64,000 bases of DNA from Prochlorococcus sp. AG-363-M21 (lineage in GTDB: Bacteria; Cyanobacteriota; Cyanobacteriia; PCC-6307; Cyanobiaceae). Made by a program: the position numbers and the translations under genes. A model generated the notes under the pieces. It did not search any database. It saw only the letters and a program-made list of their open reading frames with translations, and was not told the DNA's origin. This document shows, in pieces, positions 2,994 through 7,314 of this stretch (positions are counted from its first letter, which is position 1; each line of letters starts with the position of its first letter). Where the stretch lies: assembly GCA_003278305.1 (NCBI GenBank), contig QCFU01000001.1, positions 1 through 64,000 on the forward strand, in the 5' to 3' direction.

Positions 2994-4040
2994 GTGCCTA
3001 CCGTTGAAGGTGAAGGATCTCGAAGAATATCTGTAGATCTTCCCAACGAATTAATAGAACGCTTTGATGAACTCAAGCGTCAATGGGGATTAAGAAGGAG
3101 AGGTGCAGTTTTAGAAAGGCTTCTCGAAGTCGTTTTAGGAGATGAAAGTGAGTCAGACAATAATTCAGCGCAAATTCTTTCTGAACTATCGAATAAAAGC
3201 AATCAAATTCAATTAGATGGTATTGATGAATTAGATAATTCAACCGAATATAATGAAGATAGTGCGATAGTATTAATAGGTAATTCAGACATCGAGAAGT
3301 CTATAGGCCAGAGTAATGAATCCAGTAAGACATATAAAAAAGAGTGGAAAAGAGTTGTTAATAACAACGAAATAGATTTACCAGGCTTTGTAAGAAAAAA
3401 ATCAAGTTATTTAAGAGCTAGTTTACGGAAGAATCATAGTCAGGAAGCACATGATGAACCAATTGTATATCCAGTTAAAGAAGAAGATATAAATAAATGT
3501 ATCCAAGAAGCATTGAGCCACTGGGTTTCGCTATATGGAAGTACACCAAAAGATAATGTTATTGAAGCAGCAATGATATGGCTCGCCAGAGACATTTGGC
3601 CAAATCTAGAGGGAACAGAAAACCGCCCGTTTACATGGAGAGCAGCAATTAATTCAATGATCAAAATTTGTCCGTCATGGAAAAATGCTAAACCAAGCTT
3701 TAATCGAATTATTGTCTTAGCCGGAGTGCTTGAAGATCCATTTGCTACTTCATCATTACAAGGTAGGTTGCCAACCTTGATTAGAAGGTTTGTAAACAGC
3801 TTTAAAAGAAGTCAAAATGTTACCTCTTTTCAGACTTTAGAATCAACAATGACTGTACACGGCGCTTTAAAATTACTATCACTTCCAACAACAGCTGGAG
3901 CTTCCTTGTCCCTAATTTCTATCAGGGACGCTTATAAGTCCAAAGCGCTAGATAATCATCCTGATTCTGGTGGATCGACTGAAACCATGCGACGAATAAA
4001 TGAAGCGTATCAATTGCTGAAGGAGCTATACAGAAAATAA
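2994..4040 (+). CDS. ribbon-helix-helix plus C-terminal J-domain protein
   Basis: A 348-residue protein with GTG start. Residues about 10-47 (RRISVDLPNELIERFDELK, then a basic helix and RLLEVVL) look like a ribbon-helix-helix DNA-binding fold. Residues 50-120 are acidic and low in complexity. Residues about 160-270 form an unnamed helical region with WVSLYGSTPKDNV and RPFTWRAAINSMIKIC. Residues about 290-348 form a J domain with the Hsp70-activating HPD tripeptide at 322-324 and RRINEAYQLLKELY. It would pair a DNA-binding head with a DnaK-recruiting tail. Related J-domain proteins occur in marine picocyanobacteria; the job is unknown. It stands alone, upstream of a motif-dense 772-bp gap. Confidence 0.8.
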   Translation: MPTVEGEGSRRISVDLPNELIERFDELKRQWGLRRRGAVLERLLEVVLGDESESDNNSAQILSELSNKSNQIQLDGIDELDNSTEYNEDSAIVLIGNSDIEKSIGQSNESSKTYKKEWKRVVNNNEIDLPGFVRKKSSYLRASLRKNHSQEAHDEPIVYPVKEEDINKCIQEALSHWVSLYGSTPKDNVIEAAMIWLARDIWPNLEGTENRPFTWRAAINSMIKICPSWKNAKPSFNRIIVLAGVLEDPFATSSLQGRLPTLIRRFVNSFKRSQNVTSFQTLESTMTVHGALKLLSLPTTAGASLSLISIRDAYKSKALDNHPDSGGSTETMRRINEAYQLLKELYRK

Positions 4041-4812
4041 TCGCATTGGTCTCATATAGGACTACTCATGAGTCTATAAACTAGACTCATGGTCTACGGG
4101 TAAGAATGTTTTATCTTTTTTGATCTTGAACCATTATTTGTTAGAAGCAATTTCTCCGTCCAAGCAATTGCATATGAGACTCTTTATAAGTCTTACTATA
4201 AGTCTAGAATAATACTTTGTCGACAAATTATTTTTCAGCGTTCAAAAGAAGTTTTTACGATTTTCTAATTGAATAATATTAGTTTATAGAACTATCATCT
4301 GATTTATCCAGTTAGATTAAAATGTGAATCTATCAATAAAATGTTGGTTGAAGCTGTTTGCTTGTAATTTTAAAATGTGGAATGTATGCAATTCGTTGAT
4401 TAGAACAACTAAAATTAAATAGATTTAGAGCTTTTACTATGTCCATATTATGGCCAATATATAAAAGTCCATCTTAGAACCCTTGCAGCAAGCTTAAAAG
4501 AAACCTCGCGTAACTGTATTATAGACAGTTACGCGAGGTTTAACTACTTTCTATCCAATTGTTTAATGTCATTTATGAGAATTTTTTTAAGAGTAGAAAT
4601 CTGTCTATTAAGTCTTATATGAGACTATATAGTAGTCTCAGGTCTAGTCTTTTACAATGTTAACAAGACAGTCTCTATAGTAATTAATTGATTTTCCTAT
4701 AGATTCAGCATTCAAAGAATAACTCTTAATACGCGAATGCTCGTATCATGAATCTCGTATAAGAATAATAATTAGTCTATGTATGAGACACATATTATTT
4801 GCATGAGATAGA
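4041..4812. repeat. 772-bp gap rich in AGTCT/AGACT inverted motifs
   Basis: No ORF of note. By hand I count about 12 copies of AGTCT or its complement AGACT between 4030 and 4815, where about 1-2 are expected from base composition. Several are arranged as hairpins: a 10-bp stem at 4067-4076/4082-4091 (CATGAGTCTA), an 8-bp stem at 4620-4627/4633-4640 (TGAGACTA), and TAGTCTAT at 4773-4780 matched by ATAGACTA at 4808-4815, over the pheT stop. A separate 17-bp perfect hairpin lies at 4501-4541. The gap separates the convergent RHH-J gene and pheT. Confidence 0.7.
4501..4541. terminator. perfect 17-bp GC-rich hairpin
   Basis: AAACCTCGCGTAACTGT (4501-4517) is matched base for base by its complement at 4525-4541, around a 7-base ATTATAG loop. 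The CCTCGCG core is unusually GC-rich for this genome. No T-run follows on either strand, so it is not a textbook intrinsic terminator, though it lies between convergent genes and may stop or protect transcripts from both sides. Confidence 0.65.
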
Positions 4813-7314
4813 CTATTGTCTTAGCTCGGCTCCAAGTTCTTTAACCAGAGATTTTAGAATTTTCGAATGTATTGGGTTAATATCTTCGTCCGTTAATGTT
4901 CGATCTGCCTTTCTATAAATTAGTCTAAAAGTCATTGCTATTTTGTCTTGATCTATGTTCTTACCTTCATAACGATCGATAATTTCAACTTCTTCTAACA
5001 GTTTCCTTCCTATTTTCTTGATTAACTTAATACCTTCATTAGCCAAAGTGTTAGAAGGTAGTATTAATGAGATGTCTCTATCCATTGAAGGTACTGTTGG
5101 AAAGTCTTTTACTCTTACCACCCATTTATTTGTTCTAGTTGAAGACGCTAATAATTTCTCTAAATCAAGTTCAAAAATGTAGGTATTTAGATTCAAGTTC
5201 ATTTTGCTTATGATTCTTGGGTGAACTTGTCCAAAAAAACCTATAGCTTTTCCTTCTATAAATAATTCTGCTGATTTGCCTGGGTGCAGGTGATCTTTGT
5301 TATTAGTAATTTTATCCTCTGGATTTAATTTCATTGCCTGCAGCACTTGTTGTAGTTTCCCACGTGCTTCAAAGTATCCAATGTTGTTTGATGAAGTTGT
5401 ACGCGACCAGTTTTCTAATTGCTTAGGCCCAGTTATGGTCCCAGATAATATTTTAAATTCCTGCAAATTCTCTTTTTCCTTTTTATATACCTTACCAATT
5501 TCGAATAGCCAACATGCATTCTGCCCGGCATCAATATTTCTTTTACATATATTTAAATGTTCTCTCCATATATTAGTTCTCAAATGACTTGTTTCCTTTA
5601 AAAGTGGATTAGATATTGGTACTTGTTCCTTATTGTTCTTATCATCTGGTACAAGTGAAAATGTCGTGACTTCTTGCAATCCTGATGCTACAAAGTATTT
5701 CCGTAAATTTCTTTCTGCTATTTGATAAGGAGTTAAACCTCCTGGTTTAACAGGTTGAGGTAGGTTTGATTCAAATGAATCATATCCAATTAATCTTGCA
5801 ATTTCTTCTATAAGATCAATTTCTCTTGTTAGGTCGCTCGACCTATATGGTGGGACAATTACATCCCAGCCATCTTCCTTTTTCTGATAGGTGCATGCTA
5901 GCGCGTTCAATATTGATTCTATTTCCTTTTGAGAAACAAAGTTCAACTCTTCTTTTCTATTAGGATCGTTTTCACTTTGTATTTCTTTTAAAGTTTCTAT
6001 ATTACTCTTTATTCCCTTTTTACCTAGGATCTTATGTACTCTGCTCAACCTAAGATGAATAGGCAAAATTTCCTCCTTTTGATCTTTGTTTTTTAAGCAA
6101 TCTACTACTTTAGAACTGAATATCATCTCTAGTAATTCAATAGCCCTTGAAGCTGCTGGTAAAGTAAGATGTTCTGATATTCCTTTTTCATATCTACTAC
6201 TTGATTCTGTACGAAGGCCTACTTTTCTTGAATTTATTCTGACTGATGATGGTGAAAAAAGAGCAGCTTCTATAATTATCCTTTTAGTAGTTTTCTTGAC
6301 ACTAGAATTTTCAGAACCTATTACACCAGACAATGCAATTGGGATATCTTTACAGGTTATTATGTTACATTCTTTGTTTAAGCAATATTTCTTGCCATCT
6401 ATGCCTATGAAGGATTGTTCATCTTTTGAATTTTGAACCTGTATATCCTTAATATTGATATCATGTCCTAATAATTCATTTAACCTATCAACATCAAAAG
6501 CATGTAATGGTTGCCCTGTTTCTAACATAACATAATTTGTTATATCGACTATTGCATTAATGGAATTAATTCCAGCCTTTGATAATCTTTCTTTTATCCA
6601 TTGGGGAGAACTAACACTACCGTCTACACCTTCTATATAATGTAAGGAATATATACCATTCGCTTTTATCGCAGTTTGATTATTATTTAGAGAATTAAAA
6701 ATTTTGTATTCCTTATATTCTTCTGATTGTTTATAATTAAACTTAAGATTCCTAAGGGCAGCAATTTCTCGTGCAATTCCAACGATAGACATACCATCTG
6801 GTCGATTTGCAGTTATAGCTAATTCAATTACTGTGTCATTTAAATTAAGTATTTCCTTTGGAGACTTCCCAACTTTAGGTTCTCCATTATTAAGTTCTTC
6901 TAAAATAGCAATTCCTTGAGATCCATTGGCCAACCCAAGTTCGTCGTATGAACATATCATCCCATAACTGGTAACTCCCCGTATATCACTTTTTTTGATC
7001 TTTAAACCTATTGCCGGCAAATATGTTCCTACTTGAGCGACTAAAACATGTGTTTTGCTCTTTACGTTGGGAGCCCCGCAAACGATTTGAAGAGTTTTGC
7101 CATCTCCAATAGTAACCTGGCACACCTTTAATTTATCCGCATTGGGGTGTTTTTCTACCTTTTCGACAAAACCAATTATTATTTCTTCCACTGATTTCCC
7201 CATGTCTTCTATTGAATCAACTTCAAAACCAGCTATAGAAAGGGATTCACAAAGTTCTTCTATGTCTTCTTGCACCTCGACATATTCACGTAACCAGGAG
7301 ATGGGAGCCTTCAT
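4813..7314 (-). CDS. pheT: phenylalanyl-tRNA synthetase beta subunit
   Basis: At 833 residues this is the usual length for the beta chain of the tetrameric enzyme that charges tRNA-Phe. Domains in order: an N-terminal EMAP-type tRNA-binding fold (residues about 40-150, with GFVEKVEKHPNADKLKVCQV), the B3/B4 region with the NRPDGMSIVGIAREIA motif, the B5 domain, the inactive synthetase-like core, and the C-terminal ferredoxin-fold anticodon-binding domain (VKDFPTVPSMDRDISL). pheS must be elsewhere. The ATG at 7314 begins MKAPISWLREYV, the normal family start. It is divergent from rpsR. Confidence 0.97.
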   Translation of the reverse strand: MKAPISWLREYVEVQEDIEELCESLSIAGFEVDSIEDMGKSVEEIIIGFVEKVEKHPNADKLKVCQVTIGDGKTLQIVCGAPNVKSKTHVLVAQVGTYLPAIGLKIKKSDIRGVTSYGMICSYDELGLANGSQGIAILEELNNGEPKVGKSPKEILNLNDTVIELAITANRPDGMSIVGIAREIAALRNLKFNYKQSEEYKEYKIFNSLNNNQTAIKANGIYSLHYIEGVDGSVSSPQWIKERLSKAGINSINAIVDITNYVMLETGQPLHAFDVDRLNELLGHDINIKDIQVQNSKDEQSFIGIDGKKYCLNKECNIITCKDIPIALSGVIGSENSSVKKTTKRIIIEAALFSPSSVRINSRKVGLRTESSSRYEKGISEHLTLPAASRAIELLEMIFSSKVVDCLKNKDQKEEILPIHLRLSRVHKILGKKGIKSNIETLKEIQSENDPNRKEELNFVSQKEIESILNALACTYQKKEDGWDVIVPPYRSSDLTREIDLIEEIARLIGYDSFESNLPQPVKPGGLTPYQIAERNLRKYFVASGLQEVTTFSLVPDDKNNKEQVPISNPLLKETSHLRTNIWREHLNICKRNIDAGQNACWLFEIGKVYKKEKENLQEFKILSGTITGPKQLENWSRTTSSNNIGYFEARGKLQQVLQAMKLNPEDKITNNKDHLHPGKSAELFIEGKAIGFFGQVHPRIISKMNLNLNTYIFELDLEKLLASSTRTNKWVVRVKDFPTVPSMDRDISLILPSNTLANEGIKLIKKIGRKLLEEVEIIDRYEGKNIDQDKIAMTFRLIYRKADRTLTDEDINPIHSKILKSLVKELGAELRQ

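Follow-up and report, generated by a model that had tools for sequence, protein, structure and literature searches.

In Escherichia coli, recombination at the chromosome terminus is restricted to chromosome dimers by FtsK, while the surrounding region is organised by MatP. Plasmid dimers, on the other hand, are resolved at cer and psi independently of FtsK, through a core accompanied by ArgR/PepA accessory sequences. The chromosomal systems XerCD/dif with FtsK, XerH/difH, XerS/difSL and archaeal XerA have in common a single terminus site with a dyad-symmetric core of about 27-29 bp, and a tyrosine recombinase with a Xer-like catalytic fold; canonical dif measures 28 bp, with 11-bp arms and a 6-bp centre. 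For cyanobacteria, dif prediction gave a site in 0 of 5 cases in one study (PMC3025954) and none in another (PMC6416890), and no earlier report of such a site in cyanobacteria was found in the open-licence PMC literature.

Here we describe a gap between two convergent genes that is, on balance, probably the chromosome-terminus site-specific recombination locus, and thus the dif equivalent, of picocyanobacteria. At the level of sequence, the locus combines three conserved elements in fixed geometry (phased arrays, a palindromic core and a directional arm repeat) with a position at the terminus, a core and arm shared with phages, arrays confined to the hosts, and no detected FtsK. It is like the Xer systems in the features listed above, but it has a perfect palindrome with a 9-nt centre, a recombinase with a predicted lambda-Int-like N-terminal domain that Xer family models miss, accessory arm and array sites, and no FtsK. 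By the defining features tested it is therefore not XerCD/dif, although it would function as such a system should the proposed reading be right. Like cer and psi, it couples a core to accessory protein-binding DNA without FtsK; unlike them it is chromosomal, carries arrays on both sides, and its accessory protein would be an RHH-J fusion. The locus offers a concrete, conserved dif candidate for Prochlorococcus and Synechococcus, with a likely recombinase, a likely accessory protein and a possible route to control without FtsK.

The window analysed is a stretch of 64,000 nucleotides from Prochlorococcus sp. AG-363-M21, in which no tRNA was found. The gene for RHH-J and pheT (4813-7314, minus strand) converge, and their 3' ends enclose a gap of 772 nt at 4041-4812 (Table 1). 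An earlier note on this DNA had reported an excess of AGTCT and its complement AGACT in the gap, and the excess is borne out: eight and three copies, respectively, make 11, against a mean of 2.5 and a maximum of 9 in 5000 dinucleotide shuffles (11 was reached in 0/5000) and 1.6 expected from the window-wide rate. A twelfth copy at 4810-4814, the last site of array D, overlaps the 3' end of pheT. When the choice of the best 5-mer was allowed for, in this gap only, 2 of 500 shuffles were equally extreme; the count from the gap alone is thus moderately strong evidence, and the motif was therefore examined in relatives, where its conservation across 67 orthologous regions makes the observation decisive. 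In the window's own genome (1.16 Mb scanned), the paired form AGWCT-N7-AGWCT has 12 matches, five inside the gap and the others single and scattered; the array is not a genome-wide feature. The hairpin pairs proposed in the earlier note at 4067-4091 and 4620-4640 are real and consist of adjacent array sites 12 bp apart, while the pair proposed at 4773-4815 is a looser one (4774, AGACA at 4786, 4810). Mobile-element terminal inverted repeats, with arms at 4049-4063 and 4611-4625, were considered and are accounted for as array sites.

Table 1. RHH-J and the sequence elements of the gap downstream of it, in window positions
Feature	Position	Strand	Details
RHH-J gene	2994..4040	+	ribbon-helix-helix at the N terminus, a conserved helical region in the middle, J domain with HPD motif at the C terminus
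Array A, directly 3' of the RHH-J stop codon	4048..4095		RGWCY at 4048, 4059, 4071, 4083, 4091
Array B	4177..4205		AGACT 4177, AGTCT 4189, AGTCT 4201 (12, 12 bp)
Directional arm repeat	4440..4471	+	TGTCCA 4440, degenerate TGGCCA 4451 (11 bp), AGTCCA 4466
Perfect palindrome, 17-bp arms	4501..4541		AAACCTCGCGTAACTGT-ATTATAG-ACAGTTACGCGAGGTTT
Conserved core of the palindrome	4508-4534		GCGTAACTG-TATTATAGA-CAGTTACGC
Array C	4611..4674		AGTCT 4611, AGACT 4622, AGTCT 4634, GGTCT 4641, AGTCT 4646, AGTCT 4670
Array D	4774..4814		AGTCT 4774, AGACA 4786, AGACT 4810; 12-bp register

RHH-J orthologs were taken from whole genomes and named GTDB contigs, mostly of Prochlorococcus, with two Synechococcus and one freshwater-type MAG, and the 750 nt downstream of each gave a set of 67 Cyanobiaceae regions. 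The motif is conserved in relatives: these regions hold 448 copies of AGWCT, against 128 in shuffles, at a density of 8.9 per kb compared with 1.5 upstream of RHH-J and 2.1 further downstream. The sites are phased. Pairs exactly 12 bp apart number 88, against 0.25 in shuffles (maximum 2 over 40 shuffle sets), forming a sharp peak in the distribution of pair distances that is followed by 24 bp (31 pairs) and then by 35, 23, 32, 44, 11 and 55 bp. The control palindromic 5-mers AGSCT, TCWGA and GAWTC give no 12-bp pairs and ACWGT gives nine. The array motif, spaced 11-12 bp, can be relaxed to RGWCY, which raises the number of 12-bp pairs to 238; high-GC loci behave likewise, with 41 pairs at 12 bp against few at neighbouring distances. 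RGWCY reads identically on the two strands, which would suit a symmetric RHH dimer on each site, judging from the known binding mode of RHH proteins.

The layout of the arrays is conserved as well. In array A the spacings are 11, 12, 12 and 8 bp, and in relatives a comparable cluster lies no more than about 60 nt past the stop codon of RHH-J (for example +18/30/42 or +20/32/44). Array B lies about 330 nt to the left of the palindrome centre, and 39/66 loci have a pair spaced 11 or 12 bp between −400 and −290 (null about 1%); the counterparts of array C (+60 to +240) and array D (+260 to +390) are found in 56/66 and 37/66 loci, with nulls of 0.3% and 0.2%. Across loci, the arrays occupy about −400 to −175 and +50 to +390 from the palindrome centre, with few sites between; in the window the left arrays run from −473 to −316.

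The protein encoded beside these sites is a plausible ligand for them. In the window's RHH-J, the Pfam models RHH_1 and DnaJ both score below cut-off, while among homologs DnaJ is detected in 30/30 and RHH_1 in 16/30 (best E 9.6e-6), and the HPD motif is invariant. A fold search with the J domain alone returned a J-domain match at Z 9.7, and AlphaFold confidence is good in the J domain and helical middle and fair in the RHH part. The conserved helical middle domain (residues 128-277, window 3375-3825) has no Pfam match. Adjacency, co-conservation and the symmetric, phased motif make it plausible that RHH-J binds the AGWCT array. The earlier note, pointing to the operators that RHH proteins often bind near their own genes, had already suggested such binding. 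RHH repressors bind phased sites, and the array is close to the RHH-J gene, so that an autoregulatory operator comes to mind. Autoregulation of this kind is hardly credible here: the array lies downstream, where two genes converge, and in 66 loci no sites spaced 11 or 12 bp occur in the 350 nt ahead of RHH-J, for which reason the operator was rejected as the main reading.

The palindrome at 4501-4541, which is absent from the earlier note, is the best conserved element of the gap. Its core, with the consensus GCRTAHCTG-N9-CAGDTAYGC, is present exactly or nearly so in 65/67 regions, the centre between CTG and CAG always measuring nine bases and the conserved arms 9-10 bp. A change at arm position H on one side is mostly matched on the other, and the outer arms of the palindrome, though specific to lineages, often remain complementary. 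A search allowing up to two mismatches places the core at the RHH-J-linked locus and hardly elsewhere, in essentially one copy per genome; with one mismatch it is confined to Cyanobiaceae, save for scattered outgroup hits. In the genus of genome G018, a compensated variant, TGTACTG-N9-CAGTACTAC or similar, occurs once per genome in 28/41 genomes. The asymmetric 9-nt centre is reversed relative to RHH-J in five loci (L006, L044, L050, L052, L081), as if the core had flipped. In G010 (99% complete), where the recombinase described below is present and neither RHH-J nor the site is recognisable, a palindrome at two contig starts (L179:11-37 and L180:11-37; contigs C28 and C39) has no arms and was taken as unrelated.

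Ahead of the core, about 75 bp to its left, stands a directional repeat of the general form TGTCCA-N5-TGTCCA. The sequence GTCCA is nearly confined to −100 to −50 from the palindrome centre, nearly always in one orientation and on one side, and GTCC at −105 to −50 is found in 62/66 loci, with at least two copies in 56/66 (null 9% for one) and a usual spacing of 11 bp. In the search for the core outside Cyanobiaceae, a strict pattern of arm plus core had two matches in 194 genomes, one of which is the host site of G075.

In many genomes the palindrome arms reach 15-27 bp, a form that could equally belong to an RNA hairpin or a cruciform. Four gaps (L049, L080, L071, L064) carry perfect arms of 21-27 bp and lineage-specific sequence; this length exceeds the need of a protein site and suggests template-switch correction or a cruciform role. 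A structured RNA, or a bidirectional terminator between the convergent genes, would account for the strong hairpin and the complementary changes in its stem, but we consider it very improbable, as a terminator-like site was not seen and Rfam gave nothing at the gathering score, the stem is conserved in its sequence, the gene downstream differs among genomes, and phages have copies complete with arm repeats.

The locus lies at the replication terminus. In 13 single-contig genomes, which are related and so do not amount to 13 independent tests, the site falls at 0.445-0.519 of the chromosome from dnaN (G012.505, G005.489, G032.519, G035.465, G011.512, G024.445, G025.485, G075.477, G132.484, G162.466, G175.501, G203.476, G216.480). 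The terminus was located by AT skew, GC skew being too noisy, and in three genomes the site is within about 20 kb of the switch: the switch in sign falls at 865-878 kb in G012 (site at 885 kb), at 285-321 kb in G005 (301 kb) and at 296-302 kb, with a flat stretch beyond, in G032 (316 kb). The orientation of the site relative to dnaN and its neighbouring genes vary among genomes; pheT is directly downstream in some, and 2-3 kb away or not detected within the fetched stretch in others, so the site belongs to no single neighbour. A polar fork trap of the Tus/Ter type was disfavoured, since RHH-J points one way with respect to dnaN in four genomes and the other way in three. The alternative suggestion of the earlier note, a replication- or segregation-related site, has fared well, since in all the complete genomes tested the locus is terminal and encloses a site of the recombination type.

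Two readings without recombination bear on this position. In the first, RHH-J would act as ParR or ParB do, as the adaptor on a parC-like centromere made of iterons, driving active segregation, and the 11-12 bp iterons beside an RHH gene do recall ParR/parC. We think it improbable: no partner ATPase or other NTPase is found among the adjacent ORFs of the window (an Ap4A phosphorylase, a MetH-activation-domain protein and pheT), the position is that of the terminus rather than the origin, and the palindrome and TGTCCA arms are left unexplained. The strongest alternative is terminus organisation in the manner of MatP without control of recombination, where RHH-J and the array would tether or condense the terminus and coordinate it with division, the palindrome being incidental or separate. 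The terminus position in 13 genomes, the RHH protein and the phased arrays speak for it, as does the precedent of MatP, an RHH protein with dedicated, repeated matS sites in Ter (PMC12756933). MatP, however, has a coiled coil where RHH-J has a J domain, and matS comprises more than 20 sites over Ter, while here paired sites are packed at 11-12 bp spacing into one locus of about 750 bp. The core and arms are conserved at least as well as the arrays, and they travel without arrays in phages. On this evidence, organisation alone appears unlikely.

A recombination locus calls for a recombinase, and the candidate is a tyrosine recombinase of about 390 aa, represented by the orthologs of G012:C1:500111-501268 (L149). 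One strong ortholog is present in nearly every Cyanobiaceae genome, including every complete one tested, and most of the other sampled families have one too; none was detected in the window's own genome (G000), which is 70% complete. The catalytic domain matches PF00589 (34.9 bits, cut-off 27.1) and the conserved motifs are GLRNHE, KTGEH, YDLRH, GHS and TYHHW, YDLRH having Tyr for the His of HxxR. The NCBIfam models XerA, XerS and XerD score 18-26 bits against cut-offs of 220-330. At its N terminus the structural model shows a helix, then three strands and a second helix (pLDDT about 90), a domain with no Pfam match, followed by core-binding and catalytic domains. Its nearest solved folds are archaeal XerA (Z 12.7 and 11.4), XerH (10.7) and lambda Int (about 10.5), which aligns from residues 1-4 to about 380 with a large rmsd; the N-terminal domain is predicted to be lambda-Int-like. 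We regard this pan-cyanobacterial protein as a candidate for the core Xer of cyanobacteria. Its link to the site is indirect: outgroup cyanobacteria keep the recombinase while the Cyanobiaceae core is absent from them. Two genomes also count against the dif-equivalent reading, G010 with its recombinase but no recognisable RHH-J or site, and G075 with an additional core away from the terminus.

The heterocyst recombinases XisA and XisC, to judge from their published features, carry the same His-to-Tyr change, and XisC recombines the hupL repeat CACAGCAGTTATATGG, which contains CAGTTAT, a sequence common to this repeat and the Cyanobiaceae core arm (PMC3610870). They differ in serving the developmental excision of elements rather than a terminus site. 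FtsK (PF01580) exceeded its cut-off in 0/10 Cyanobiaceae genomes, nine of them near-complete, and control genomes were positive.

A mechanism can be proposed from these components, in which the pairing of proteins with motifs, the recombination, the resolution of dimers and the part played by Hsp70 are what we infer. The palindrome would be the crossover site, or core, and the TGTCCA pair the arm site. The conserved recombinase would most likely act at both, with its catalytic and core-binding domains on the palindrome and its N-terminal domain on TGTCCA. RHH-J dimers most likely coat the phased arrays, one for each 5-bp symmetric site every 11-12 bp, and the resulting nucleoprotein complex would be an accessory one that aligns sister sites and restricts recombination to chromosome dimers at the terminus in place of control by FtsK; the J domain may recruit Hsp70 to dismantle it. 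The scheme in full, namely terminus recombination without FtsK by a lambda-Int-type recombinase on a core-plus-arm dif, controlled by RHH-J arrays, switched by Hsp70 and exploited by widespread lytic cyanophages whose core and arms escape the control by arrays, is put forward tentatively, as less likely than not.

The core and arms are also found in viruses. At least 120 stretches, with more than 100 viral contigs among their sources, contain the exact core pattern, and TGTCCA lies 10-150 nt away, pointing at the core, in 77/108 usable viral sites, against 10% at random positions; it stands at the host distance (−60 to −100), and 11-bp pairs are visible. AGWCT arrays are absent around the viral cores, and relatives of the conserved recombinase were found neither in the fetched flanks of 80 viral sites nor in the phage collection. 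Across a third of its extent, one viral contig shows about 73% similarity to Prochlorococcus phage P-SCSP1l (OM416772). This phage itself has TGTCCA-N5-TGTCCA followed by a variant core, GCGGAACTG-N9-CAGTACTAC, without arrays. The site (L305:37279-37375) of this lytic MED4 phage, which has no annotated integrase, adjoins its terminase genes. Its right arm CAGTACTAC is identical to the variant arm of the G018 genus, of which we take MED4 to be a member. Phages of the P-SCSP1 type have been described as abundant and cosmopolitan (PMC9860041). The site was not found in the cultured phages P-SSP7, 9515-10a, P-SSP10, Syn5, S-H1 and P60, and several cyanopodoviruses use tRNA-Leu with an integrase of their own (PMC8776855).

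These copies could mean that the palindrome and TGTCCA form an attachment site of temperate phages or islands that happens to be kept at the terminus with no host function, since viral contigs carry the same module and G075 has another copy of it that probably belongs to a mobile element. That explanation seems decidedly unlikely, as the module is kept at the terminus throughout the complete genomes tested, which span a diverse family, its arm changes are compensatory, the arrays are confined to hosts, and the fetched viral flanks and the phage collection contain no relative of the recombinase. The phages are for that last reason more likely to borrow the host system, as the Xer-exploiting CTX phage and IMEX elements do, which likewise carry the host core without a relative of the recombinase; here the carriers are cyanophages, identified by their core and arm sites. 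The dif-equivalent reading predicts a new contact point between picocyanobacteria and their viruses.

The second core of G075 (L145:5808-5834, G075:C1:759808-759834) lies away from the terminus; its neighbours are glyQ and a gene for a T7-like RNA polymerase, and TGTCCA accompanies it along with three or more TGGACA repeats spaced 10-11 bp. Nearby, an ORF of 517 aa (G075:C1:766522-768073) is recombinase-like by eye, and this copy is probably part of an integrated mobile element.
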